Source: Halocatena pleomorpha (lineage in GTDB: Archaea; Halobacteriota; Halobacteria; Halobacteriales; Haloarculaceae). From it: a DNA stretch of 64,000 nt. A program made the position numbers and the translations under genes. Shown here piece by piece: positions 47,200 through 61,211 of the stretch (the first letter of the stretch is position 1; the number at the start of each line of letters is the position of its first letter). Under the pieces are notes generated by a model. That model was not told the origin of the DNA and searched no databases. It worked only from the letters and a program-made list of their open reading frames with translations. The stretch lies in NCBI RefSeq assembly GCF_003862495.1, contig NZ_RRCH01000023.1:62001-126000 (forward strand), given 5' to 3'.

Positions 47200-48285
47200 T
47201 CACTCGGTCGTAATCGATTGGCGTGTTTCTTCGAGCAACGACTGCACGTCGACCGGTGTTCCGGTTCGGCTGCTTTTCATCGCGGCCGCTATCAACGCCA
47301 TCGACTGCAAGTTATCCTGAACGTTCGTCGCCATCGGTTCGCCGCCGTCCAGCCAGTCAACGAACTGTTCGATGAGCCACGTGTTGCCCCATTTGTCTCG
47401 GTCGTCGAGGACAACCGGAGAACCCGCCGTCGCTCGTCCACCGACGACGCCCTCCTGTTCGGGATCGTACGGATACCGAACCAACGCACGGTCATCGAGA
47501 ACGAGCGTCTCGTTTCGACACTCCGCACGCAAGTAATCGCTGTTCCACCCGTTGAGGGTGACGGCGTTCGCCTTCGCGCCCTCCCAGGTTGCCCGCGCTC
47601 CGTTCTCGAACCGGAGTTGGACAAGCGCTTGGACATCGCCCTCGTATTCGGCCCATTCGGGGCACCACGTGTCGGCGTACACTGTTTCACAGCGGCTACC
47701 GGCCATGTCAGCGATAAAATCGAGCTGGTGAACCGCCCCCTCGATCATGAGCACGTCCTCCATCTCGTGGCGGAACGCTCCCCACGTCCCGTAGGAACGG
47801 GCGTTGCACGTGAATCGACCGACGAGGTAATCGAGCGGGCCGGCGTCCTCACGCCGCAGTTGTCGTCTGAACGTCGTTTTGTCCCGATCGAATCGGTGGC
47901 TCATTGTGACACCCATCTTCAGATCGGCTCGGGACACCTTCGTAGCGATCCGGACAGACGCCGCAAGCGAGTCAGCGATCGGTTTCTCGCTCAGGATGTG
48001 AAGATCGTGCTCGATGGCCGCGTCGACGATGTCTTCGTGGAGCCACGGGGGTACCACGATCGTGCAGGCGTCGGCTTCGACCGCCTCGAAGGCAGTCCGT
48101 ACATCTGTGTAACACTGGTCCGACTCTAGTCCGAACTGTTCGATCGCGTTCTCGTGTTGTTCGGGATCGATGTCGACCGCAGCGACGACATCGATCAGAC
48201 CGTCCTCGACGTTCTTCGGCAGATACGTCGAACACCACTGTGCACCCTGCCCACCTGTTCCAACCTGAATGATTCGATAGGTCAT
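47200..48285 (-). CDS. Gfo/Idh/MocA-family oxidoreductase, last gene of the second CUT1 operon
   Basis: A 361-residue protein with Rossmann start IIQVGTGGQGAQW (Gly-rich loop), the EKP motif as LSEKPIADSLAASVR, and the C-terminal domain with MIEGAVHQLDFIADMAG, whose His fits the catalytic position. It follows the second permease by 69 bp on the same strand, so the importer and a sugar dehydrogenase would be co-expressed, as in many oxidative sugar pathways. A TAACTGTTA stretch lies just upstream (about 48317-48326). Substrate unknown. Confidence 0.9.
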   Translation of the reverse strand: MTYRIIQVGTGGQGAQWCSTYLPKNVEDGLIDVVAAVDIDPEQHENAIEQFGLESDQCYTDVRTAFEAVEADACTIVVPPWLHEDIVDAAIEHDLHILSEKPIADSLAASVRIATKVSRADLKMGVTMSHRFDRDKTTFRRQLRREDAGPLDYLVGRFTCNARSYGTWGAFRHEMEDVLMIEGAVHQLDFIADMAGSRCETVYADTWCPEWAEYEGDVQALVQLRFENGARATWEGAKANAVTLNGWNSDYLRAECRNETLVLDDRALVRYPYDPEQEGVVGGRATAGSPVVLDDRDKWGNTWLIEQFVDWLDGGEPMATNVQDNLQSMALIAAAMKSSRTGTPVDVQSLLEETRQSITTE

Positions 48286-48354
48286 GGGTATGATCGGTCG
48301 AGACGGCGATATTCAATAACTGTTACTAATCCGGAAGTATGGTCGGTGGCAGGA

Positions 48355-49272
48355 CTACTCCTTGAGCGCGCCCTGTGTGAGACCGCTGACGATGTAGTCC
48401 TGAGCAACCATCACGAGGATCGCCATCGGAACGACGCCGATGATGCTCGCAGCGGCCATCAAGTCGTAGGCCACCTGTTGACTCCCTTGGAACTGGAAAA
48501 TTCCGTGCAAAATCGGGGACCAGTCACCGGTTCCGCTCACCATCAGATACGAGAAGAAAAATTCGTTATATACAATAATGAATGAGAGGATTCCCGCAGT
48601 GGCGAATCCGGGAGCCGACAGCGGGATGATGATCCGAACGAGCGCACCGAGCCGGGTTGAGCCTTCGATCCGCGCGGCGTCTTCGAGTCCGTCGGGGATC
48701 TGTGCATAAAACGTCGACAGCAGAAAGATGATCAGCGGCATGGTGAGCGCGCTGAGCGGCATGACGATGCTCCATGGGGTGTTGTACAGCATCGGTGACT
48801 GGACGCCGAGGAATTCGATGTTCGCTGTGAACAGCTGGAAGATCGGGATCAAAAACGCCACACCGGGGAAATACGAGATCACGAGCACGACTAACAACAA
48901 CGGCGTGCGTCCCGGAAAATCGTATCGACCGAAGACGTAGCCGGCGATGCTGCCGACGAAGAGCACGACGATCGTCGTCAGCGTGGCGATGATGGCGCTG
49001 TTCAGCATGTAGATGTGGAAGGGGATCGTCTCGAACACCTCGACGAATACGCTCGGATGAAAGCCCTTCGGGAGCAGTCCCATATCTACGATCGATCGGT
49101 TCGGTGTCACGGCGATCACGAACAGCCAGTAGAACGGAAACAGTGACGCGAGCAGAAAGAATGCGGTCACGACGTACAGGAGCACGCGGTAGGCCGACTC
49201 TGGGCGTTCGATGGCTCGCCGTGCGTACTGCTGGATGAGGTTTCGCTCCGTGTCTTCGTTGTCTTCTCGCAT
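48355..49272 (-). CDS. CUT1 sugar ABC transporter permease (MalG type)
   Basis: A 305-residue permease from the ATG at 49272, which overlaps the preceding stop by one base (TGATG); the frame extends to 49398 but would overlap the previous gene extensively. Six helices; the EAA loop is EDAARIEGSTRLGALVRIIIP. The C-terminus SGLTQGALKE is typical of this subfamily (GlnP/MalG tail). Confidence 0.92.
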   Translation of the reverse strand: MREDNEDTERNLIQQYARRAIERPESAYRVLLYVVTAFFLLASLFPFYWLFVIAVTPNRSIVDMGLLPKGFHPSVFVEVFETIPFHIYMLNSAIIATLTTIVVLFVGSIAGYVFGRYDFPGRTPLLLVVLVISYFPGVAFLIPIFQLFTANIEFLGVQSPMLYNTPWSIVMPLSALTMPLIIFLLSTFYAQIPDGLEDAARIEGSTRLGALVRIIIPLSAPGFATAGILSFIIVYNEFFFSYLMVSGTGDWSPILHGIFQFQGSQQVAYDLMAAASIIGVVPMAILVMVAQDYIVSGLTQGALKE

Positions 49273-50267
49273 CAGACACCAAGCCCCCCACCTTCCTCGC
49301 CACGGAACTGGACGAGATAGATCAGTAACAGCAGCCCGATAGCGATCGCTACGAGAAACGCGATTGCTGCCGCCGAGCCGTAGCGGTGGGCGTTCCACGT
49401 CGTCACGACGAGACAGCTCACTGTCGGCACCGTGTTACAGCTAGCGACCGTCTCGACGACGCCGTACACTTTGAGCGCCGCGATCGTCCGAAAGAGCAAG
49501 GCGACGAGGAGCGCGGGTAACACCAAGGGGAACGTGATCGTCCGGAAGCGCTGCAATCGTGAAGCTCCCTCGACTTTGGCTACCTCGTACAGCGACCGAT
49601 CGATGCTCTGGAGTCCGGCGAGGATCAACAACGCCATGAACGCCGACTGCTTCCAGATGTCAGCGAGGATACTGATCAACAGCGCGTCCTGACTGTTCGC
49701 TAGCGGCGAGGCGGAAATGAGTCCGAGATCGTTCAGCGGACCGACTGCGAAGCCGATCGAGGGCTGGAACATGAGATAGAAGATCATCCCCTGGATCACG
49801 ATCGGAACGGCCCACGGAAGGATCATGGCGACGCGGGCAAAGCGCCGGCCGCGAAAGCGCTGATCGAGTACCAGCGCCATCGCAAAGCCCAAGATCGTCT
49901 CCATCACGACCGCACCGAGCGTAAATAGGAGCGTTACGGGTACGGCACTCCGAAAGGGCCGACTCAGATCGAAGAAGGGCCGTCTGAGAATCGGGTTCGC
50001 TCTGCCAGTTAGTAGATCGATGTAGTTCTGTAGCCCGACGAAGCCCCCGACGAGATCAGGACTCAGTACGTTGTCGGCGTGCAATGAGAGGTTCGCCGTG
50101 TACAACAGCGGCCAGATCGCCATCGATCCCAACACGAGCAACACTGGGAGCAACATGAGATAGACGAACTGGGTTTCGCTCAGGCGTTCGATACGATCTA
50201 AAACGACGAGATCAAGCCGGTAGCTCGGTCGCCGTGTGTCCATCGATGATCTGTTTTCAATTGTCAT
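49272..50267 (-). CDS. CUT1 sugar ABC transporter permease (MalF type)
   Basis: A 331-residue permease with six helices and EAA loop YEVAKVEGASRLQRFRTITFP. It starts 3 bp after the lipoprotein gene's stop; ATG at 50243 is a shorter alternative. The helix 4-5 segment contains two Cys (SCNTVPTVSCLVV), uncommon in haloarchaeal permeases. Confidence 0.92.
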   Translation of the reverse strand: MTIENRSSMDTRRPSYRLDLVVLDRIERLSETQFVYLMLLPVLLVLGSMAIWPLLYTANLSLHADNVLSPDLVGGFVGLQNYIDLLTGRANPILRRPFFDLSRPFRSAVPVTLLFTLGAVVMETILGFAMALVLDQRFRGRRFARVAMILPWAVPIVIQGMIFYLMFQPSIGFAVGPLNDLGLISASPLANSQDALLISILADIWKQSAFMALLILAGLQSIDRSLYEVAKVEGASRLQRFRTITFPLVLPALLVALLFRTIAALKVYGVVETVASCNTVPTVSCLVVTTWNAHRYGSAAAIAFLVAIAIGLLLLIYLVQFRGEEGGGLGV

Positions 50268-50270
50268 AGC

Positions 50271-51707
50271 TCACACTGATCCTTCAATCCGTTCGAGTCG
50301 GTTCGCAAGCCGCTCCATTCCCGCCTCCGGTGTGGTGTCACCCATGATGACCCCGTTTGCCTCTTGGGCAACGACCTGTGACTGCTCGGGCCAGATCGCC
50401 GTTGCTGGTCTGGCGAGCGAGTGCTCGCTGGCGTACGTGAGCGTCTCCACGTACCGTCCCATGATCGACACGTCGGTCGCGCTGGCGAGCACGTCCGGGA
50501 TTGGCGGGATATGACCGATAAGCGAGAAGTTTGCGAGCTGGAACGACTCGGTCGTGAGTGCTTGGAGAAACTCGACACAGGCGTCGAGATGGTCGGTCTC
50601 GGGGTTCACTGCGTAGTTCCAGCCACCGAGTGCCGCGATCGATCCACCGGTGCCGGGATATGTTCCGTTGCCGTCGGGAACGCCGTACGGAATCGGCATC
50701 ACGCCCATCGACTTGCCGAGGACATCGCTGGCACCGTTGATGTTGATCGAGTACGGCCAGTTGCGCAGCGCGACCGCGTTGCCCTGCGTGAACGGTCGCA
50801 TCGACGGCGAGAGTCCCCATTGGAAGGCGTCGGTCGAGGTGATTTCTCCCGTGAATCCGTCGAGGGTGTCGGGTGCGTCCGTTCCGTGGATGAACGTCCG
50901 AGCCATCCGGAGCGAGTCGAGTACGGGTTTTTCGGTGACCGTTACCGGTCGATCACCGATCGTGTAGAGGTTTTCCTCAGGATTGCCGAAATACGCACCG
51001 CCCCACGAACTCAGAAACTCGTTGAACACACAACAAGCGAGTTGCAGTTCGGAGGCGGCCTGCCAGTTGAAGCCGTACTCGACGTCGGATTGCTCGTATA
51101 CGTCCGTTATTTCGGCCGCGAACCGCTTCCAGGAGAGCGGATCGGTCGCGTGCTGTTGCCAGTCGTAGCCAGCGCTTTCGACGAGATCACGCCGATACTG
51201 GATCGTCGGCAGATCGGGATACAGCGGTACGGCATAGAGGTTTCCGTCGTCACCGGTTGCCGACTGGACGCTCTGGGTGACGTACCGCTCTCGGATCCGG
51301 GCGAGTGTCTCAGCAGGGAGCACGTCGTCCAAACTCAACAGCTGTTCCCTAACGACGAACGGTCGGATCCACCCCACGTCACAAACCAACAGATCTGGGG
51401 TAGAAAGTCCAGCCGACAGCCACTGCTGATACTGGGCGAGTGAGTCGTCGGTCGTCTGGCCCGGACTCGCCATCTCGATGTGGATGTTCTCGGACATGCC
51501 CGCGTCGTGGAGGTTTCGGGTGACCTTCGAAGCGGCGTTACGCCATTCGTCGGGTGCGGTTATCTGGATCGTTGTCCCGTTCGATCCGTTCGACGTTTCT
51601 CCCCACCCCAAACAGCCAGCCAGACTGACGATTCCACCTGCACCGACTGTTCTGAGGAGCGCCCGCCGATCGACCGAACGGACCCCCCGGTGTGAACGTT
51701 CGCTCAT
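50271..51707 (-). CDS. CUT1 sugar-binding lipoprotein (family 1)
   Basis: A 478-residue receptor. Tat motif DRRALLRTVGAGG, lipobox ending at Cys32 (LAGC). Family-1 features: ITAPDEWRNAASKVTRNLHDAG at the N-lobe, PDLLVCDVGWIRPFV, and GWNYAVNPETDHLDACVEFL. Its ATG overlaps the ATPase stop by four bases (ATGA). Here the ATPase precedes the lipoprotein gene, the opposite of the first CUT1 operon. Gene neighbours (GH3, GH2) suggest a beta-linked oligosaccharide. Confidence 0.92.
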   Translation of the reverse strand: MSERSHRGVRSVDRRALLRTVGAGGIVSLAGCLGWGETSNGSNGTTIQITAPDEWRNAASKVTRNLHDAGMSENIHIEMASPGQTTDDSLAQYQQWLSAGLSTPDLLVCDVGWIRPFVVREQLLSLDDVLPAETLARIRERYVTQSVQSATGDDGNLYAVPLYPDLPTIQYRRDLVESAGYDWQQHATDPLSWKRFAAEITDVYEQSDVEYGFNWQAASELQLACCVFNEFLSSWGGAYFGNPEENLYTIGDRPVTVTEKPVLDSLRMARTFIHGTDAPDTLDGFTGEITSTDAFQWGLSPSMRPFTQGNAVALRNWPYSININGASDVLGKSMGVMPIPYGVPDGNGTYPGTGGSIAALGGWNYAVNPETDHLDACVEFLQALTTESFQLANFSLIGHIPPIPDVLASATDVSIMGRYVETLTYASEHSLARPATAIWPEQSQVVAQEANGVIMGDTTPEAGMERLANRLERIEGSV

Positions 51708-52861
51708 CGTGTTGGGGTAGTCGGCTCTGAGACGATGTCGTGTGCGATCGCCTCACCCGTTGCGGTCTCAAAGAGGTGCACGCTCGTCCGATCGAAGACG
51801 ATTTCGACGGATTCTCCTTCTTCGACCGCCGACTCGGAGGGAGCGCTCATCAGGAATTGCGACCGCCCCACGGTCTCATCGGCGTCGGCCCAGTCTCCAC
51901 TCGTGGCTTCTTCGAGGCCGGCGTCCAAATAGACGAAGATCTTCTCTCCAATCGGTTCGAGCACGTCGACCGTCGCGTCGATCGGTTCAGTACGCTCCAG
52001 CGGTTCGGCGTCGGCAAAGTAGATGTCTTCGGGACGAACTCCGAGAGTAACGTCGGTCACGCCGTCGTAATCAGCGTCGCTGAGATCAATACGCAGGTTC
52101 TCAGAGACGAACTGTGCTCCGTCGATCGAGCCCGCAACGAAGTTCATCGACGGGGACCCGATGAAGCCGGCGACGAACTGATTGGCTGGTTCGTTATAAC
52201 AGGTCAGCGGCGGGGCGATCTGTTGGAGTTTTCCGTCGTTGATCACCGCAACGCGGTCGGACATCGTCATCGCTTCCTCTTGGTCGTGGGTGACGTAGAT
52301 CGTCGTCACGTCCAGTTTGCGCTGGAGCTGCTGGAGTTCCGTGCGCATGTGCACACGCAGCTTCGCATCCAAGTTGGCGAGTGGCTCGTCCATCAGAAAG
52401 ACCGATGGGTTGCGAACGATCGCACGCCCGATAGCGACCCGCTGGCGCTGCCCACCGGACAGCTCGCTTGGGCTGCGCGTGAGTAGTCCTTCGAGTTGGA
52501 GCGTCTCGGCAGCTTCGTTCACCCGCCGCTCGATCTCTTCTGGGTCTGTGTTCCGGATTCGGAGTCCGTAGCTGATGTTCTTATACACGTTCATATGAGG
52601 AAACAGCGCGATGTTTTGGAAGACCATCGCAAGATCCCGGTCCTTCGGCGGAAGATCGGTCACGTCCTCATCGTCGATGAACACCTTTCCCTCACTGGGA
52701 ATCGTCAATCCTCCGATCATCTCAAGCGTTGTGGATTTCCCACAGCCGGAGGGACCAACGAGCGAGATGAACTCACTGTCAGCAATATCAAGGTCGATCC
52801 TCTCAACTGCGACGACATCGTCGTACTGTTTGGTAACTGTTGCTAAACGAAGCGATCCCAT
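51704..52861 (-). CDS. CUT1 sugar ABC transporter ATPase, first gene of its operon
   Basis: A 385-residue UgpC/MsmX-type ATPase: Walker A GPSGCGKS, signature LSGGQRQR, Walker B VFLMDEPLANLD, switch YVTHDQEEAM, and a C-terminal TOBE region with DVTLGVRPEDI. It leads a five-gene operon (ATPase, lipoprotein, two permeases, oxidoreductase). A TATA box (52886-52893) lies 25-32 bp upstream of its ATG, so the message is probably leaderless, and a palindrome (52862-52874) fills the space between TATA and start. Confidence 0.93.
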   Translation of the reverse strand: MGSLRLATVTKQYDDVVAVERIDLDIADSEFISLVGPSGCGKSTTLEMIGGLTIPSEGKVFIDDEDVTDLPPKDRDLAMVFQNIALFPHMNVYKNISYGLRIRNTDPEEIERRVNEAAETLQLEGLLTRSPSELSGGQRQRVAIGRAIVRNPSVFLMDEPLANLDAKLRVHMRTELQQLQRKLDVTTIYVTHDQEEAMTMSDRVAVINDGKLQQIAPPLTCYNEPANQFVAGFIGSPSMNFVAGSIDGAQFVSENLRIDLSDADYDGVTDVTLGVRPEDIYFADAEPLERTEPIDATVDVLEPIGEKIFVYLDAGLEEATSGDWADADETVGRSQFLMSAPSESAVEEGESVEIVFDRTSVHLFETATGEAIAHDIVSEPTTPTR

Positions 52862-52874
52862 ACTGTTTTACAGT
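52862..52874. promoter_or_regulatory. Palindrome between TATA box and start of the CUT1 ATPase
   Basis: ACTGT-TTT-ACAGT, perfect 5-bp arms, occupies positions -1 to -13 from the ATG, between the TATA box (52886-52893) and the expected transcription start. It resembles the triple palindrome at 47022-47079 but has a 3-base spacer. A protein bound here would block initiation. Confidence 0.6.
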
Positions 52875-52885
52875 CTCTATTACAT

Positions 52886-52893
52886 CATAAATA
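52886..52893 (-). promoter_or_regulatory. TATA box of the second CUT1 operon
   Basis: TATTTATG on the minus strand, 25-32 bp before the ATG at 52861; this spacing fits a leaderless transcript. Confidence 0.55.
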
Positions 52894-52930
52894 GGTGTTG
52901 GTTATTAGGAGTAATACTATTTGAAACACA

Positions 52931-55864
52931 TCATTTGAGGCGGATCATATTGACGCGGACGGCACCGTCACGGACCACAAGACAGAGGTCCTGTCTGTTG
53001 CCGCTCGCTCCGTTCAGCGGGACTGAGTGGCTCGCGTACTCGTACTTATCATCAGTTGACGGTATGGACGTACTGCCGAGCATCCGGCCGGATGGAGATC
53101 CATGACGAAGTTCGATCGTCGCTTCTCCGGATTCCAGGCGAGCGACCGAAACGGTTGCTTCGGTCGGTTTGCTTCGGAGATCGACATCGACGAACGACAC
53201 CCATGATCCATCGGACATGCCAACGACCGTTCCCTCCGCTCGTGACCGATCGAGTAGTTCGATTTTCGACCACGACCAGTCGTCAGCGTCGACTGCCCGC
53301 GTCTCCTTGGATAGATCGCGCGGTGGAATCCGATCGCCATCGACTCGGAGTGATCCGCGTAGCCGGATGTCGTCGGAGGCCGAGCCGACGAGCACCGCGT
53401 GGGTTGCCCGTTCAACGATCCGTTTTCGTCGCGTCACGTCCCAACAGGAGAACGCGCTGTGATCGATAGAGTGTTCGACAGTTGTGCTCTCGTCGGGAGC
53501 GAGGTGAATCCGCTCGAATCCGCGGAGAACACGATCCGGCCGTCGAGTTCGGGAGTGGCGCTGTGTGGTGTAGATCTGGACCACTTCGTCGGCGGCCATC
53601 GATCCAGTGTTGGTTACCCGAACCGTGATGGTCGCGTTGTCGTCCGAATCGAGCGTTCCCCGTGGGGAAACGCGTAGATTCTCATACTCGAAGCTGCTGT
53701 ATGAGCGTCCGTGACCGAACGCGTACAGTGGATCCTCTTGTCCGTAGCGGTAGGTCATCCCCGCTTTGGCGATGTTGTACTCTGTTATGTCCGGGAGTTG
53801 CTCGACTGAGCGCGGCCATGTCTGGGGCAACCGACCGCCGGGAGAAACGTCTCCGACCAACACATCGGCCACTGCACGACCGGTTTCCTGCCCAGCGTGG
53901 CTTGTCCATAGGATCGAAGGAAGCTGTTTTTCCACCCCAGTGCGAACGGGATAGCTGCTTTCGATGACCAACACGGTGTGTGGCTGGGCGTCAACCACGT
54001 GCTCAAGAAGGTCCCGTTGGGACGGCGCAATGGCGAGTGTTTCGCGGTCTCGCGTTTCACGGCCGCCTATCAGGGGATGTGTGCCGACTACTACGACGGC
54101 AATGTCCTCGTCGGTCGCGGCTTCGACCGCCGTCTCGACGCCGTCGCGGCGCACCTCGCGGACGAATCGGGCGGCGTCGGACTGTCGTTCAGCGCTGGCG
54201 TGAAGCGCCCCGTCCATGATCGCCACGTACTGCTCACTACTCCGGTGTCGAAGCAGTACCCCGTCGTCAACATCAATGAACTCGAAGGTCTCTTGAACCA
54301 TTTCCCACCCAGCGGGCCGCTCCGCAGAGTTGACGAGCTGATCGTCATCGACGGTCACGTACCGATCGTTCGCCGTCGCCTGGAGCGTCCACGCGGTTTC
54401 CGTCCATTGTACGGCTTCGAACAGTTGAACGCTAGGGGTGTCGGTACCGTTGAGTCTGAGAACGCCGCCGCCTTTGCCGACGCCGGCTGTGACGTACTTA
54501 TCCGAGGAGCGTTCCCGAAGCGCGATCTGATCGGCACCGACGGCGGTGTGAATCTGCTCCGCCCCAAACCGGTCACGCAACCCGTCTACGGGGGTGCTCC
54601 GGTACGGCATCGTTCCGCTGTACCAGTCCTCAAACACCCTATCTGAAAGTGGACCGAGAACGGCAACACTGTCATCCTCCGAGACCGGAAGCACTGCGGG
54701 ATCATTTTTCAGGAGAACGGTCTGTTTGCGTGCTGCCTCCCGAGCGAGTTCTTGATGCGCGGGCCGTCCGATGACTTCCTCGGTGAGATCTGCGTAGGGA
54801 TCCTCCGACGGCGGCAAGAACTCCCCGAGCAGCGACCGAACCCGCAGGACGTGTCTGACTGCTTCATCGAGGTCTCTGTGGTTCAGGTCTCCGTTTTCCA
54901 GTGCGCCGAGTATCGCGTCAGTCGTGATCGAACTGTCAGACCCGTTCTCGGTGAAGCTATCTAATCCCGCGCGCAGTGCATGCGCACGGGCTGTCTCCTT
55001 CGATTCAAAGTACTCCTGAGCGCCGGTCAGGTTCATCGGTGCCCACGCGTCACTGACGTTCAACACCGATCCGCTGTCGGGTGCCCATTCCCGAACGAAT
55101 CGGTTCAGCAACGGTGACACTGTCATTGGTCGCCCGTTGACACGGTTGTACGACGCCATCACTCCGACAGCGTTGCCCGCCTCGATCGGTGGACGGAAGA
55201 ACTGAAGATAGTACTCGTGCAACAGTCGAGGCGGCAGTTCGGCGTTGGTGGTCGTCCTGTCCGTCTCGTTGTTGTATCCGATGAAGTGTTTGAGCACCGG
55301 GGCTGTTTTGAGATACTCCGGATCGTCTCCGGCGAGACCGCTTGTATACGCTGTCGCAATCTCCCCGCTTACCAGTGGATCTTCCGAATACCCTTCTTCG
55401 TTTCGGCCCCACCGGGGATCTCGGAGCGGATCGACCGTCGGAGACCAGACGTTGAGGCCGACGCCACCAGAACTCGCATTGTGTTTTCCCCGGACTTCAT
55501 CACCCACCGCACTGCCGACGCGCTCAATCAGTTCCGGATCCCACGTACTCCCGAGACCGATGGCTTGAGGAAAGACAGTCGCTTCTCCGAGCCACGCAAC
55601 CCCGTGCAGCGCCTCCGTTCCGGTCCGAAACGAATCGAGGTTGACCCTCGGAATCGGCGGCTGGTACTGGTGTAATAACGACACTTTCTCCTCGGTAGAG
55701 AGTCGCTCAACCAGAGCATCGACGCGTTCGTTTCTCTGTTCTGTGCCGCGAGATGGTTGCGCTTCCGTACTCTCTTTAGGGGCTGCATTCACAGTCCCTG
55801 TCAGTGCCAGACCCGTTCCGACACCGATGGCTGCGAGCAAGTTTCTACGAGTCGTATCCATCAT
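52931..55864 (-). CDS. Secreted GH3 beta-glycosidase with fascin-like insertion and CBM6-like tail
   Basis: About 977 residues from ATG 55864 (55861 also possible). A Tat signal (TTRRNLLAAIGVG, cleavage near AAP at 27-29) leads to the GH3 TIM barrel (about 45-345; nucleophile Asp272 in SDAWAP, substrate motifs KHFIGYNNE and DPRWGRNEEGYSEDP), then the GH3 C-terminal domain. That domain is split: residues about 447-573 form a run of repeats (LRERSSDKYVTAG, ANDRYVTVDD, RHRSSEQYVAIMDG), the pattern of fascin-like beta-trefoils, before AVVVVGTHPLIGGRETRDRE resumes. A fibronectin-III-like domain and a CBM6-like module (about 865-977, GSWVSFVDVDL) finish it. The substrate is a beta-linked glucoside or xyloside; family does not say which. 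Confidence 0.9.
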   Translation of the reverse strand: MMDTTRRNLLAAIGVGTGLALTGTVNAAPKESTEAQPSRGTEQRNERVDALVERLSTEEKVSLLHQYQPPIPRVNLDSFRTGTEALHGVAWLGEATVFPQAIGLGSTWDPELIERVGSAVGDEVRGKHNASSGGVGLNVWSPTVDPLRDPRWGRNEEGYSEDPLVSGEIATAYTSGLAGDDPEYLKTAPVLKHFIGYNNETDRTTTNAELPPRLLHEYYLQFFRPPIEAGNAVGVMASYNRVNGRPMTVSPLLNRFVREWAPDSGSVLNVSDAWAPMNLTGAQEYFESKETARAHALRAGLDSFTENGSDSSITTDAILGALENGDLNHRDLDEAVRHVLRVRSLLGEFLPPSEDPYADLTEEVIGRPAHQELAREAARKQTVLLKNDPAVLPVSEDDSVAVLGPLSDRVFEDWYSGTMPYRSTPVDGLRDRFGAEQIHTAVGADQIALRERSSDKYVTAGVGKGGGVLRLNGTDTPSVQLFEAVQWTETAWTLQATANDRYVTVDDDQLVNSAERPAGWEMVQETFEFIDVDDGVLLRHRSSEQYVAIMDGALHASAERQSDAARFVREVRRDGVETAVEAATDEDIAVVVVGTHPLIGGRETRDRETLAIAPSQRDLLEHVVDAQPHTVLVIESSYPVRTGVEKQLPSILWTSHAGQETGRAVADVLVGDVSPGGRLPQTWPRSVEQLPDITEYNIAKAGMTYRYGQEDPLYAFGHGRSYSSFEYENLRVSPRGTLDSDDNATITVRVTNTGSMAADEVVQIYTTQRHSRTRRPDRVLRGFERIHLAPDESTTVEHSIDHSAFSCWDVTRRKRIVERATHAVLVGSASDDIRLRGSLRVDGDRIPPRDLSKETRAVDADDWSWSKIELLDRSRAEGTVVGMSDGSWVSFVDVDLRSKPTEATVSVARLESGEATIELRHGSPSGRMLGSTSIPSTDDKYEYASHSVPLNGASGNRQDLCLVVRDGAVRVNMIRLK

Positions 55865-56247
55865 CTTTCGAAACTCTACCAATGAGTGGTATTGAATAAA
55901 TAAAAACATACCGCAGGAGTAACTGGTTCGGTTGTGCATCCCCGTTCTATTTTGCAGAATACTGATTGAAGCGTGTTCCCAACTATCGTATCATAGACGC
56001 TACGAACGACAATGTGATTACAAGCGTACTTCCGTAATAAACTATGACGGTTTCCCTGATCGAGAGCGCTGCTGAAAACGGTCATTCACACCTCATTCCT
56101 GAGAATATATCGATTGTAGTGAGGCACTCTTCTATCGGGATGTTTTAGAAAACGCTGTTCTCCATCTTGGAATGTTAGTTATAACGATTGTGAATTCTAG
56201 AATCAATGGGGGGATGGATGAACGAATCGTCGACTAAAATACGGACC
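55865..56247. other. AT-rich region between GH3 and GH2 genes
   Basis: No gene. Next to GH3 it holds a promoter: TAAATAAAAA at 55898-55907 (forward reading) as TATA, and the inverted repeat at 55877-55891. The 3-prime side adjoins the GH2 stop (56248). No terminator-like hairpin with a T-run was found, though AT-rich tracts may serve. Confidence 0.5.
55877..55891. promoter_or_regulatory. Inverted repeat in the GH3 promoter
   Basis: TACCA-ATGAG-TGGTA, perfect 5-bp arms, immediately downstream of the TATA-like box and 13-27 bp before the ATG at 55864. Its right part TGGTATTG recurs in the GH2 promoter at 60341-60348. Confidence 0.45.
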
Positions 56248-59200
56248 TTATCGGTCCGGATGAACGAGCGTCATTGGGTCCTCAGTTTCCGCATCGAAGG
56301 GGAGAAGGCTGACTTCGAACGACGTTTCTACCGGTTGAACCTGGTGTTCCTCATGCGGATCGATCGGCGTTCCGCCGACACCGGAGACGCGGTGATCGAG
56401 GTTGACCGCGATCGACCCTCTGTCTTCGAGTTCGTACTCGTGGGTAGCTGCTGCTACGTTCGAAAAGCGATTGCAGCTCACGTTTATCGGCTCCGCTCCG
56501 CGGGCGAGTAGTCCATTTTCTTCGTCGGTGAGCGCCACCCATCGGGTGTCGGTTTTGTTGCCGTTGTCCGTCGGCGGAAGGTAGGGCACATACTGGTCGG
56601 CAACCGTTCCAGCGTAGTGACCGATGTCGACACCGGTTTTCCGATCAGGAAACGTTTCTTGTGGCCCTCTGCCGTACCACTCGATATCCGCAAAGCGACT
56701 CGGTAGCTCCAGTTGCACCCCAACTTTGGGAAGATACCCGGTTACGATGGCTTTCAGTTCGTCGTTCGGGATGGCGTCGACGGCGATCGTGACGGCACCG
56801 TTGCCGAAGATCTGGTACTGGTAGGTCGTCTCGAACCCCGCAGACGATCCGTTCACTTCATTTCCGCGTGCGAAACTCTCTATGTCGATCTGTGCGTGCT
56901 CGTTCGTTCGTGAGACATCCACGGATTCGATCTCGTGATTGAGAGTATTGAGTCCGGCTGTCCGCCAGGCCGTCGCCTGTTCGCCGTTCCACTCTTGGGC
57001 GTCGTTCATAAGCGGGGCACGCCACGCGTTAAACAACGGTCCCCGATCGAGGATTTCAGTTCCCTCGTAACGCATCGACGTGAGTGTTCCCGCCGGTTTG
57101 TCGATCTCGTATTCGAAGTTCGTTCCTGTGACGGTTACCGCCGCTTCTGTTTCGGACACGCGTGGCGGCTGTCCGGCACTGAGCGGCGCTCGCTCCGGAC
57201 GATCGACCGGTATCTCGAACTGTTCACGAGCGACCTCGTGGCCCGCATCGGCGTAGTCGGTCGCTTCGGGCTGTTGAAACGAAAGGTGCAACCAGTACTC
57301 CATTCCAGGCGCGGGATCGGTCGGTCGCTCGAACGGCACCCGAACCGGTTGTGTCTCTCCCGGCTCGATGTCAAGCTCCAACTCTCCCGACTGGACCGTC
57401 TCGTCAGCAACCAGCGTCCACTGACAGTCGAGTTCGTTCACGTTCGTGAACTGGTGGTGATTGGTGACGTACAGTTTCCCTGTAGATAGATCTTGAGGCT
57501 CGGCTTTCACCGGCTGATGGCTGTGCTTGAGCTGCCAGAGTTCGGGTTGTGGTTCGCGATCGGACCAGACCATCCCGTTGAGACAGAACGGATCCTCATC
57601 ATAGAATTGGTAGCGCACCTGTTCCCCATCATCGGTGGTCGTGCGTGTGAGATCCTGGTTTACCCAGTCCCAGATGAAGCCGCCGTGGAGACTTTTATCG
57701 CGTAACAGCGTCCCAAAGGAGTAATCGAGAATCGCCGCGTCAGGATCGGCCGTCTGTACCTCGTCGACTGATAGCGCGCGATCGAACACGCGAACGGAAT
57801 CGATCGTTACGGACGGCTCGGATCGGCCCTCGTGATCAGCCGTTCCGATCCGAACCGCTCCGCCGTTGTCGATCTGCTCCGGTGATCGATCGGTTTCGGT
57901 AATCAGCTCGCCGTTGAAGTACAACTGAAGACGATCTTCCTGACAGACACCGACGAGCGTGTGCCATCCTTCCTCGCTCGCCGCTGTCAGCGGTGATCCG
58001 ACGGCTGAACGGTCACCGACGCTGAACGCTGGCCGACGACCGGGCTTGAGAGACAGCGCGTACTGTCCATCGTTCGAAACGAGATCGATGCTCGTTTTCG
58101 GATGGATCTCTGCAAACGAAACAGCGATCGAAAAGCCCGGGGAGGTAAAACTGAGTGCGTCCGTGTCCTCGACATCAACGTGATCGTCGCCACGAACGGT
58201 GATGCTCCCGTCCGTTCGTCCGGTGTCGACGGTTGGCGATCCGACAAGGACGCCGTCGTGACCGGTCCCGGATCCATCGCGGGCGCGTCTAACCGTCGGC
58301 TGGATGTGATTTGCCCACATTCGGTGGACCAGTCCGAGACTGCTTCCCATAGCGTGGTTGTACTCTCCCATCACGACCGGTCGGTTCCCGTTACCGGGCG
58401 AACCGTCGCCACTGGACCGGTCTCCGAATCGCGGGCTGTCGCTGACATCAGCCCCTTCGGCTAACCCTAACAACGTGTCGAGTTCGATGTACCGGGGACC
58501 GAGCATGTCAGCAAATTCGATGTCCCAGCCGCCACTGTTCGGTTGGTGATACAGCAGTCGATTCGGTGCCAACTCGGGCGCTTCGACGGTTCCGTCGAAT
58601 GATTCGACTGGTTCGGGGGCGAGTCGAGTTGCGTCTGCGGTGCTGTCGGGAATCGTCGGGTCGTCGGCACCGATCGCCAGCGCGGCCATGTTGATGTGTT
58701 CGGCCGCTGTTCCGGCCTCGTTACCTGTCGACCACGAGAACACCGAGGCGTGATTGCGGTCACGTAGCACCATTCGCCGGAACCGAGAAACGGCCTGTTC
58801 GTGGTACGCGTCGGTTTCAGCGAGAATACCCTCCCACCAGTGCGTTTCACAACAGGCTTCATCCATCACGTAAATGCCGTACTCATCAGCGAGCCGGAGA
58901 AACGTCGGATCGTTCGGATAATGGGACGTTCGAACGGCGTTGACGTTGAACCGCTTCATCAGCTCGATGTCGGCACGCATCGTTTCGAGGGGCATTGTTC
59001 GACCGGTTTCGGGGTCGGTTTCGTGGCGGTTCGTGCCGCGCAGATTCACCGGTTCGCCGTTAACCAACACCTGCCCACCGGGACCGCCACGGCTGGCTTC
59101 GTACGTTCGGAACCCCACCTTGTCGAGCAACACTTCTATCGTTTGTCCGCGCTCAGAAATCAGTTCGAGCACGAGCGTGTACAGGGTCGGCTGCTCGGCG

Positions 59201-60315
59201 GACCACTGCTCTGGACGGCTGATTGTGCGTTCCATACTCACGACTCCGCCGTCGGAGTCTATCGTTGTCTGACCGACCAGCTCTGCTTTCGTTCCGTCGC
59301 CGTCCGGCTCGTGGAGCGAGGCACGGATCGAATACGTGTCTCCTACAGCGTCGGCGTAGTTCGCTACCTCTGCGTCGATCCGTAAGTGTCCGTCTCGGTA
59401 TTCGTCGTCCAGTCCGGACTCGACGGCGAAATCTCGAACGTGGACGGACGGTGTCGAGAACAGGTACACATCCCGGTAGATCCCGGCGTACCGGAACATG
59501 TCGATCGCTTCGAGCGCTTCTCCATCGGAAAATCGGTACACCTGCACCGTGATCTCGTGTTCGCTGCCGGGGGTGATGTGCTCGGTGATGTCAAACTCTC
59601 CCGGCGTCATCGATCCCTGCTGGAAGCCCACGTACTGATCGTCTATCCACACGAAATACGCCTGTTTGACGCCAGCAAAGTGGACGAATACGCGTCGATT
59701 GTCCCAATCAGCCGGAACACGGAACTCTCTCTGATACGTGCCTGTCGGATTCACGTCGGGAATGTCGACGCTGCCATCGCTTGGAACCAGATCACCCTCC
59801 AGCTGTGGTTCATACCGCGTCCACGTCTCTCGCCAGTTGGCGTAGATCTGCTGGTCGTAACCGTCGATCTGCCACGGACGGGGGACGGTAGTGGTCTCCC
59901 AGTCGGTGTCGGTGTGTGTCGCCGGTCTCTGATCCGGTCGCTCATAAAAGGAGAAGCGCCACTCCCCGTTCAACAGTGTACAGTACTCCGATTCGGTGAA
60001 CCGATCAGCGAGCGAGGTGAATCGCTCGTCCGATCGGCGGGCCGTCTCGACGGAATCATACGGTATCGTCGCCGTGGCGTGGGTCGGCTCGCGGTGTTGT
60101 TCGAACACCGAGGGTGTCTCGATGTACGCGGCGAGGTTGGTGATCCGACCGGGTCCGCCGGTTTCCGTCGATGGTGCGAGTGGACTGTCCGCTCCGGCCA
60201 CCGTCTCCGTGGCCCACGCCGTCGATACAAGTGCGGTCCCCCCTGTCATCTGAAGAAACCGTCTGCGCGTCGTCGTGTAATCCGTCTCCGGTGTGGATGT
60301 CTCGTTCTCACTCAT
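56248..60315 (-). CDS. Secreted GH2 beta-galactosidase with LamG domain inserted in the catalytic barrel
   Basis: A 1355-residue LacZ-type enzyme from ATG 60315, exported by Tat (TTTRRRFLQMTGGTALV). Order: sugar-binding jelly roll (about 110-295), Ig-like domain, TIM barrel with acid/base Glu533 (STGNEAG) and nucleophile Glu651 (GEYNHAMG), then an insert of about 200 residues containing a LamG/concanavalin-like domain (about 690-865; ITVRGDDHVDVE, FSIAVSFAEI, LQLYFNGELI, VTIDSVRVFDRALS). The barrel resumes at LHGGFIWDWVNQDL; C-terminal Ig-like and beta-gal small-chain domains follow (HQFTNV; PDRKTGVDIGHY region). In E. coli LacZ nucleophile and GGFVWDWVDQ are only about 25 residues apart. Galactose specificity is inferred from the family. 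Confidence 0.92.
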   Translation of the reverse strand: MSENETSTPETDYTTTRRRFLQMTGGTALVSTAWATETVAGADSPLAPSTETGGPGRITNLAAYIETPSVFEQHREPTHATATIPYDSVETARRSDERFTSLADRFTESEYCTLLNGEWRFSFYERPDQRPATHTDTDWETTTVPRPWQIDGYDQQIYANWRETWTRYEPQLEGDLVPSDGSVDIPDVNPTGTYQREFRVPADWDNRRVFVHFAGVKQAYFVWIDDQYVGFQQGSMTPGEFDITEHITPGSEHEITVQVYRFSDGEALEAIDMFRYAGIYRDVYLFSTPSVHVRDFAVESGLDDEYRDGHLRIDAEVANYADAVGDTYSIRASLHEPDGDGTKAELVGQTTIDSDGGVVSMERTISRPEQWSAEQPTLYTLVLELISERGQTIEVLLDKVGFRTYEASRGGPGGQVLVNGEPVNLRGTNRHETDPETGRTMPLETMRADIELMKRFNVNAVRTSHYPNDPTFLRLADEYGIYVMDEACCETHWWEGILAETDAYHEQAVSRFRRMVLRDRNHASVFSWSTGNEAGTAAEHINMAALAIGADDPTIPDSTADATRLAPEPVESFDGTVEAPELAPNRLLYHQPNSGGWDIEFADMLGPRYIELDTLLGLAEGADVSDSPRFGDRSSGDGSPGNGNRPVVMGEYNHAMGSSLGLVHRMWANHIQPTVRRARDGSGTGHDGVLVGSPTVDTGRTDGSITVRGDDHVDVEDTDALSFTSPGFSIAVSFAEIHPKTSIDLVSNDGQYALSLKPGRRPAFSVGDRSAVGSPLTAASEEGWHTLVGVCQEDRLQLYFNGELITETDRSPEQIDNGGAVRIGTADHEGRSEPSVTIDSVRVFDRALSVDEVQTADPDAAILDYSFGTLLRDKSLHGGFIWDWVNQDLTRTTTDDGEQVRYQFYDEDPFCLNGMVWSDREPQPELWQLKHSHQPVKAEPQDLSTGKLYVTNHHQFTNVNELDCQWTLVADETVQSGELELDIEPGETQPVRVPFERPTDPAPGMEYWLHLSFQQPEATDYADAGHEVAREQFEIPVDRPERAPLSAGQPPRVSETEAAVTVTGTNFEYEIDKPAGTLTSMRYEGTEILDRGPLFNAWRAPLMNDAQEWNGEQATAWRTAGLNTLNHEIESVDVSRTNEHAQIDIESFARGNEVNGSSAGFETTYQYQIFGNGAVTIAVDAIPNDELKAIVTGYLPKVGVQLELPSRFADIEWYGRGPQETFPDRKTGVDIGHYAGTVADQYVPYLPPTDNGNKTDTRWVALTDEENGLLARGAEPINVSCNRFSNVAAATHEYELEDRGSIAVNLDHRVSGVGGTPIDPHEEHQVQPVETSFEVSLLPFDAETEDPMTLVHPDR

Positions 60316-60344
60316 TGTCCTTACGGTTATCGTTAGCGAATGGT

Positions 60345-60357
60345 ATTGTACTACAAT
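60345..60357. promoter_or_regulatory. Inverted repeat in the GH2 promoter
   Basis: ATTGT-ACT-ACAAT, perfect arms, between a TATA-like box (60361-60370) and the predicted transcription start near 60340. With 60341-60348 it shares TGGTATTG with the GH3 promoter at a matching distance (about 25 bases) from the start codon. Confidence 0.45.
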
Positions 60358-60452
60358 GAGATTAATACTTTTCCATACTATCAAAAAACACTGGAATGCT
60401 ATCCTGATGCGATGATTCACTCCCCAACGAGACACAAAACGGAGTCGGTAAC

Positions 60453-60477
60453 ACAGTTGAACACTGTGCTTCAACTG
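60453..60477. promoter_or_regulatory. Overlapping palindromes with ACAGT/ACTGT half-sites upstream of GH2
   Basis: CACAGT-TGAAC-ACTGTG and the overlapping AGTTGAA-(8)-TTCAACT, followed by ACTGTTTAG, which matches half of the second palindrome at 47049. The site is about 140-160 bp upstream of the GH2 start and could be an activator or second repressor site. Confidence 0.4.
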
Positions 60478-60629
60478 TTTAGTATACGAGAACGAACTGA
60501 TGATCCCGTCTGACGCCTGAAACGCCTCTCAGAACGCTTTCTAGACGGACAGACGAGATTATATCAGGGAGCAGAAACACTGTGACCGGTCGTGTTCGTT
60601 CTCAGTGCAGGAACAGAACACCTCTGTTA

Positions 60630-61211
60630 TTACTCTCGACGGACGACGTGACAGTTTCGACACCGAGCCTCGTAGGACTCTTCTGCAGCAACCATGATCG
60701 TCGGCTCATCGTAGTGGGCGGGTTTGCCGTCGATGAGTCGTTGGTTGCGTGTTGCGGGTTCACCACATTGGGTACAGATCGCTTGGAGTTTGTCGACGTA
60801 TTCCGCGAGCGTCATGAGTTGCGCAAGCGGTTCAAACGGTTCGGCACGGAACGTTTGGTCTGTCCCGCTGACGATGACACGGCGACCGTCGTCAGCGAGG
60901 CGTTTGCAGATCGAAACCAGTTCTTTCGAAAAGAAGTTCGCTTCGTCGAGGGCGACGACTTCTTCGCCGTCGAGTGAGGCAAGGATTCGCTGTGGCTGTT
61001 CCTCATCGACTACTGTCGCGTTCCACGTCGCTCCCGTGTGAGTTCCGATCGTCGTCTCGCCGTAACGACCGTCGACGGCTGGTGTAAAGACGGCGACTGA
61101 CTGTCCAGCGATTTCGGCCCGTCGTATCCGACGGAGTAGCTCCTCGGTTTTCCCCGAGAACATACAACCAGTGATTACCTCCACCCACCCGCTGTTCGTG
61201 ATGGCGTTCAT
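60630..61211 (-). CDS. tdk: Thymidine kinase
   Basis: A 193-residue type-II thymidine kinase phosphorylating (deoxy)thymidine with ATP. P-loop GCMFSGKTEEL, catalytic Glu in VVALDEANFF, the thymidine-gating lasso near AHYDEPTIMV, and a zinc site of two CxxC pairs (CTQC and CRNC) are all visible; length is normal. Its TATA-like box at about 61233-61239 gives a leaderless start at 61211. A housekeeping gene that separates the GH2 and GH97 genes and is unrelated to the sugar genes. Confidence 0.94.
   Translation of the reverse strand: MNAITNSGWVEVITGCMFSGKTEELLRRIRRAEIAGQSVAVFTPAVDGRYGETTIGTHTGATWNATVVDEEQPQRILASLDGEEVVALDEANFFSKELVSICKRLADDGRRVIVSGTDQTFRAEPFEPLAQLMTLAEYVDKLQAICTQCGEPATRNQRLIDGKPAHYDEPTIMVAAEESYEARCRNCHVVRRE

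Follow-up and report, generated by a model that had tools for sequence, protein, structure and literature searches.

The window analysed here, a stretch of 64,000 nucleotides from Halocatena pleomorpha, carries on its minus strand a gene for a LacZ-type GH2 enzyme, which spans positions 56248..60315 and encodes 1355 amino acids plus the stop codon when counted from the ATG at 60315. The reading frame is open from a TTG at 60474 down to the stop at 56248. Rather than this in-frame upstream TTG, the ATG at 60315 is likely the start, since the Tat motif TTRRRFLQMTGG comes after it and the Arg-Arg and Phe-Leu pairs of this motif (R17, R18, F20 and L21; residues are numbered from this ATG throughout) are invariant across the aligned haloarchaeal relatives. 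The enzyme is predicted to be exported by the Tat system. Its neighbours are, in order, a GH97 with a CBM (61750 onwards, plus strand) and a thymidine kinase on one side, and a GH3 with CBM6, an ABC importer and a Gfo/Idh/MocA oxidoreductase on the other, and this order from the GH97 to the oxidoreductase is also found on a plasmid of Halocatena salina. Judged by its gene content, the neighbourhood is a sugar- or polysaccharide-use locus (Table 1).

Table 1. Features of the GH2 gene and of its neighbours in the window.
Feature	Position in the window	Strand	Basis
Tat-type signal peptide, TTRRRFLQMTGG..., residues 1-45	60181..60315	-	sequence
Domain 1, sugar-binding jelly roll (PF02837)	59449..59973	-	Pfam
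Domain 2, Ig-like (PF00703)	59107..59445	-	Pfam
TIM barrel to helix alpha7 (PF02836, best stretch, profile 6-225)	58315..59076	-	Pfam
Acid/base Glu533 (= LacZ E461)	58717..58719	-	alignment to E. coli LacZ
Nucleophile Glu651 (= LacZ E537)	58363..58365	-	alignment to E. coli LacZ
Helix alpha7, residues 663-671, conserved upstream junction	58303..58329	-	AlphaFold2 secondary structure and junction conservation
LamG insert, residues 676-866	57718..58290	-	Pfam match at 57754-58191 and AlphaFold2
Strand beta8 motif LHGGFIWDWVNQ, residues 876-887, includes Trp882 (= LacZ W568)	57655..57690	-	alignment and AlphaFold2
LacZ_4 domain (PF16353)	57208..57471	-	Pfam
Bgal_small_N domain (PF02929), without LamG in the window protein	56308..57129	-	Pfam
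GH3 with CBM6 and fascin-like insert, neighbour of the GH2	52931..55939	-	Pfam; gene order as on the Halocatena salina plasmid
ABC sugar importer: ATPase, binding protein, two permeases	48355..52861	-	order as in Halocatena salina

The shared order of thymidine kinase, GH2, GH3, ABC importer and Gfo/Idh/MocA oxidoreductase covers positions 47200-61211 of the window and recurs on the 532 kb H. salina plasmid (L032), so the window region may also lie on an extrachromosomal replicon. Within the C-terminal domain of the GH3, about 125 residues (54122-54544, minus strand) resemble a fascin-type beta-trefoil, with a match to PF06268 (E 8e-4) that falls below the cut-off; the neighbouring glycosidase would thus likewise carry an inserted small beta domain in its catalytic portion.

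The window protein shows the five-domain order of LacZ-type GH2 enzymes, PF02837-PF00703-PF02836-PF16353-PF02929 (Glyco_hydro_2_N, Glyco_hydro_2, Glyco_hydro_2_C, LacZ_4 and Bgal_small_N), all above the Pfam cut-offs, with a PF13385 Laminin_G_3 domain (LamG) nested within it (E = 8.1e-15; 55.7 bits against a cut-off of 27.6). This LamG splits the barrel model PF02836, whose best stretch ends at profile position 225 of 302, whereas the match extends to position 252-264 in relatives that carry LamG after strand beta8. The nucleophile Glu and the GG of the beta8 motif (GGF-WDW) lie 227 residues apart, against 27 residues in LacZ of E. coli and in haloarchaeal LacZs that have no LamG, and the insert therefore amounts to 200 residues. 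The segment is predicted to be all-beta (block pLDDT mostly 80-94 in AlphaFold2), as in Laminin_G_3 and ConA-like domains. A LamG profile matched 4qvs (E 2e-12) and laminin LG domains in the PDB and was the better query, the segment alone giving a single weak match. In the whole 3.65 Mb genome, it is the sole Laminin_G_3 match. Chance or a frameshift artefact was ruled out as the source of the insert, since the frame is open and many relatives share the insert position. On these points the sequence-only reading holds: its gene coordinates were exact; the GH2 identity it claimed is confirmed by the five Pfam domains, the catalytic Glu pair and the predicted LacZ fold; and the roughly 200-residue LamG segment that it placed between the nucleophile and the GGFIWDWVNQ strand is there, with its PF13385 match and the extra residues. 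Structure prediction, which it had proposed as a check, returned an all-beta LamG segment within the barrel and not a loop unlike LamG.

The catalytic apparatus appears to have been spared by the insertion. In the alignment with E. coli LacZ (reference sequence taken from the K-12 genome), both catalytic Glu (E533 and E651) and twelve other minus-1 subsite positions are kept, the matched LacZ positions being E461, E537, H357, H391, H418, E416, N460, Y503, H540, W568, F601, N604, D201 and N102. LacZ W999 is unmatched, standing opposite a Gln in a stretch where the alignment is loose, LacZ D598 is lost within a deletion and LacZ M502 is replaced by Arg. The galactose site therefore looks kept and the aglycone side altered, and, with W999 unmatched and D598 missing, lactose may not be a substrate. 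The AlphaFold2 model (residues 110-1309, from a 19-row alignment; mean pLDDT 82.7, pTM 0.86) superposes on E. coli LacZ over 892 aligned residues at 2.2 A (VIA-align, Z 43), and Foldseek ranks LacZ-type enzymes at the top for it. With its catalytic residues preserved and its predicted fold superposable on LacZ, the protein has, in the model, an intact barrel despite the insert, and LamG substitutes for no part of the fold; disruption of the barrel was accordingly rejected. With 742.3 bits, the protein falls below the curated cut-off of 999 of the NCBIfam equivalog beta_gal_Bga2A (NF052611) and is not assigned to it. It is predicted to be a GH2 glycosidase of the LacZ type that is exo-acting and has a conserved minus-1 subsite.

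Insertions in TIM barrels are mostly discussed for the loops of the catalytic side. In a (beta/alpha)8 barrel, the alpha7-beta8 connection lies on the N-terminal, non-catalytic face and active sites lie on the other. The model of the window protein runs from beta7 (647-649) through helix alpha7 (663-671), the LamG strands (688-865) and a short helix (868-875) to beta8 (876-881), with short linkers joining LamG to the barrel. Since the insert occupies an alpha-to-beta connection, we infer that LamG protrudes on the side of the barrel that faces away from the active site, a conclusion of topology and not of distance. Therefore, the sequence-only reading was correct that LamG interrupts the catalytic barrel, with PF02836 split and the insert between alpha7 and beta8 in the model, but what it described as adjoining the active site is adjacent in sequence and not in space. 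Its further proposal, that LamG sits beside the active site and directs a polymer end into the cleft, had in its favour that the insert breaks the barrel near the nucleophile in sequence. Steering of this kind is unlikely from the opposite face, and the insert lies in an alpha-to-beta connection with short linkers instead of a beta-to-alpha loop. Moreover, the position that would suit the idea, the catalytic-face loop after beta8, is occupied in other relatives and has no insert in the window protein. The proposal is thus unsupported, and we regard it as improbable. Reading nearness to a catalytic residue in sequence as nearness in space is an easy error, corrected here.

A single-protein query retrieved no relatives, while a profile search of genome contigs with an alignment gave 36 loci. 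The search of other GH2 proteins for the same insertion, also suggested by the earlier reading, found it at the equivalent position in many haloarchaea. Among LamG-bearing LacZ enzymes there are two main positions. In position A, LamG lies after beta8 and before alpha8, in enzymes from Bacteroidota, a KSB1 bacterium, a planctomycete, Paenibacillus, Streptomyces, Alteromonas and some haloarchaea. In position B, it lies before beta8, as in the window protein, which has no LamG between beta8 and alpha8; the genera are Halocatena, Haladaptatus, Haloarcula, Haloferax, Natrinema, Haloterrigena, Halostagnicola, Halalkalicoccus and others. A model of the position-A enzyme of Haladaptatus salinisoli (L060), of lower confidence (pTM 0.67), places the LamG strands between beta8 (625-634) and alpha8 (883-889), so that the LamG of position A is, as modelled, part of the beta8-alpha8 connection on the catalytic face of the barrel.

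Relatives bear additional LamGs within Bgal_small_N, single or two in tandem. These extra copies (L047, L041, L037, L048, L050-L054, L040 and L006) enter at about one point, after the equivalent of window residue ~1153; two LamG types occur at this site, and the tandems are in L006 and L052. One GH2 of H. salina (L042, 2263-7482; 1740 aa) has LamGs in domain 2 and after beta8, and a C-terminal ricin-type beta-trefoil. The small chain of the haloarchaeal position-A enzymes (L043, L060, L063 and L064) is encoded by a separate ORF; in these loci and in L038, LacZ is split over two adjacent ORFs, one of ~1010 aa with LamG and one of ~560 aa with the small chain and a jelly-roll domain, an arrangement reminiscent of LacL/LacM of lactobacilli. 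Altogether, LamG domains that share the same boundaries are found in four places on the GH2 scaffold, namely position A, position B, Bgal_small_N and domain 2. The termini of the LamG fold are close together, which makes it insertion-competent and would explain its occurrence at all four.

In a scaffold tree built with the LamG segments excised, position B formed a single clade (support 100/100), sister to the haloarchaeal position-A enzymes (themselves supported at 99/99), and these two together with the position-A enzymes of Bacteroidota and KSB1 formed one LamG-bearing group (100/100). A wider, quick tree again recovered position B as one clade, its nearest neighbour being the H. salina protein with LamGs in domain 2 and position A. 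As the position-B clade nests within position-A enzymes, LamG would have switched sides of beta8 once, by move or by replacement. By parsimony, LamG after beta8 was the ancestral state, replaced in a single haloarchaeal lineage by LamG before beta8. The tree of the LamG domains has a weak backbone. A clade uniting the before-beta8 LamGs with those of the split haloarchaeal enzymes was rejected (p 0.0008), whereas single clades of all haloarchaeal LamGs (p 0.086) and of all after-beta8 LamGs (p 0.20, leaving out the Halocatena L042 copy) were not. Therefore, this tree is compatible with a move of the same copy and with replacement by a second copy, and does not decide between them. Overall, we consider it probable that LamG crossed one strand, from the catalytic to the opposite face, while the enzyme stayed intact, and that with the two other sites these enzymes form a natural series of four positions.

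The before-beta8 LamG is consistently retained. A whole-length position-B profile found 27 loci in 23 of 391 Halobacteria genomes, all 27 with the insert; no loss was seen when these loci were compared manually with the scaffold search matches. All 24 scaffold matches that are 57% or more identical to the window protein carry it, as do three more clade members at 50-51%. Judged from substitution rates, LamG is under purifying selection (dN/dS between the window and H. salina of 0.17, core 0.13, against 0.10 for the scaffold). Nevertheless, it evolves faster than its surroundings: among 18 members, mean pairwise identity was 37% in the LamG body versus 62% in the scaffold, with LamG lower in 153 of 153 pairs, and the variable body lies between strongly conserved junctions at alpha7 and beta8. 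This faster divergence is what would be expected of a neutral passenger, a tolerated insertion devoid of function; however, retention at all 27 loci and dN/dS values of 0.13-0.17 led us to reject this explanation as very improbable. Few residues of the LamG body are invariant (G, L and F), and a conserved binding site is not evident in it; this weakens the case for LamG as a CBM for a single ligand.

We lean, with modest confidence, towards a Tat-secreted GH2 enzyme in which the LamG plugged into alpha7-beta8 serves as an accessory module, away from the pocket, that tethers the enzyme or holds a partner. Such a plug-in module would probably act in tethering or assembly, holding the enzyme on a polysaccharide, a surface glycan or a partner subunit; this could raise local activity on polymers, and the chain end would not be steered into the pocket by LamG. 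Tethering at a distance from the pocket is favoured by the polysaccharide-use gene context (GH97, GH3 and ABC importer) and by precedents from GH families other than GH2: in a GH146 enzyme, activity on larch arabinogalactan was 5.8-fold higher for the construct that included the N-terminal LamG than for the one lacking it, with no gain on an oligosaccharide (PMC10850190), and a Laminin_G_3 domain was reported as a CBM (Sakka 2019, as cited in PMC9655821). The main rival, which we find rather unlikely, is that LamG has no sugar-binding role and is an element of assembly or stability, packing on another subunit or on the underside of the barrel at high salt. The conserved junctions with a fast-evolving body, the lack of a conserved ligand site and the retention of LamG in every clade member would agree with this. 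In contrast, the placement of LamGs at other scaffold sites in relatives is unlike one fixed interface, and LamG modules of other glycosidases aid polymer hydrolysis (PMC10850190).

Compared with E. coli LacZ and other LacZ-type GH2 enzymes (PDB 6drv, 1dp0, 3bga and 6sd0), the window protein shares the five-domain scaffold, the catalytic Glu pair, most minus-1 subsite residues and the overall predicted fold, but differs in its predicted Tat secretion, the 200-residue LamG in alpha7-beta8, the shortened D598 loop, the unmatched W999 and the Arg in place of M502. LamG in GH2 has been known since 2016, when an architecture survey in PLoS One (PMC5145203) noted that some proteins have a Laminin G3 domain placed between GH2C and DUF4981; the alpha7-beta8 position was not singled out there. 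That wording fits position A and, at Pfam resolution, might also cover position B. The class is represented among the loci read by L055-L059, L061, L062, L065 and L066 and the four haloarchaeal position-A loci; these are likewise LacZ-type with one LamG near strand beta8, but their LamG follows beta8, on the catalytic face, instead of preceding it on the opposite face. The enzymes of Haladaptatus halobius (L047), Haloterrigena turkmenica (L041) and Haloarcula mannanilytica (L052) belong to the same tree clade, with LamG before beta8, although, unlike the window protein, they have one or two additional LamGs inside Bgal_small_N. The bifidobacterial GH146 Bll3HypBA1 (PMC10850190) and, as cited in PMC9655821, a Ruminiclostridium josui arabinofuranosidase also join a Laminin_G_3 to a carbohydrate-active enzyme; the LamG tested in Bll3HypBA1 is N-terminal and outside the catalytic domain, whereas that of the window protein is inside the barrel, and the GH families differ. 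The open-access literature searched yielded no account of the insertion at position B, of a switch of LamG across beta8 or of the extra LamGs of the small-chain domain.

These observations flag a clade of halophilic GH2 enzymes predicted to be secreted. Related enzymes that carry LamG before or after the same strand, or at one of the two other sites, offer a natural comparison of the effect that the placement of a binding-type module has on a glycosidase.
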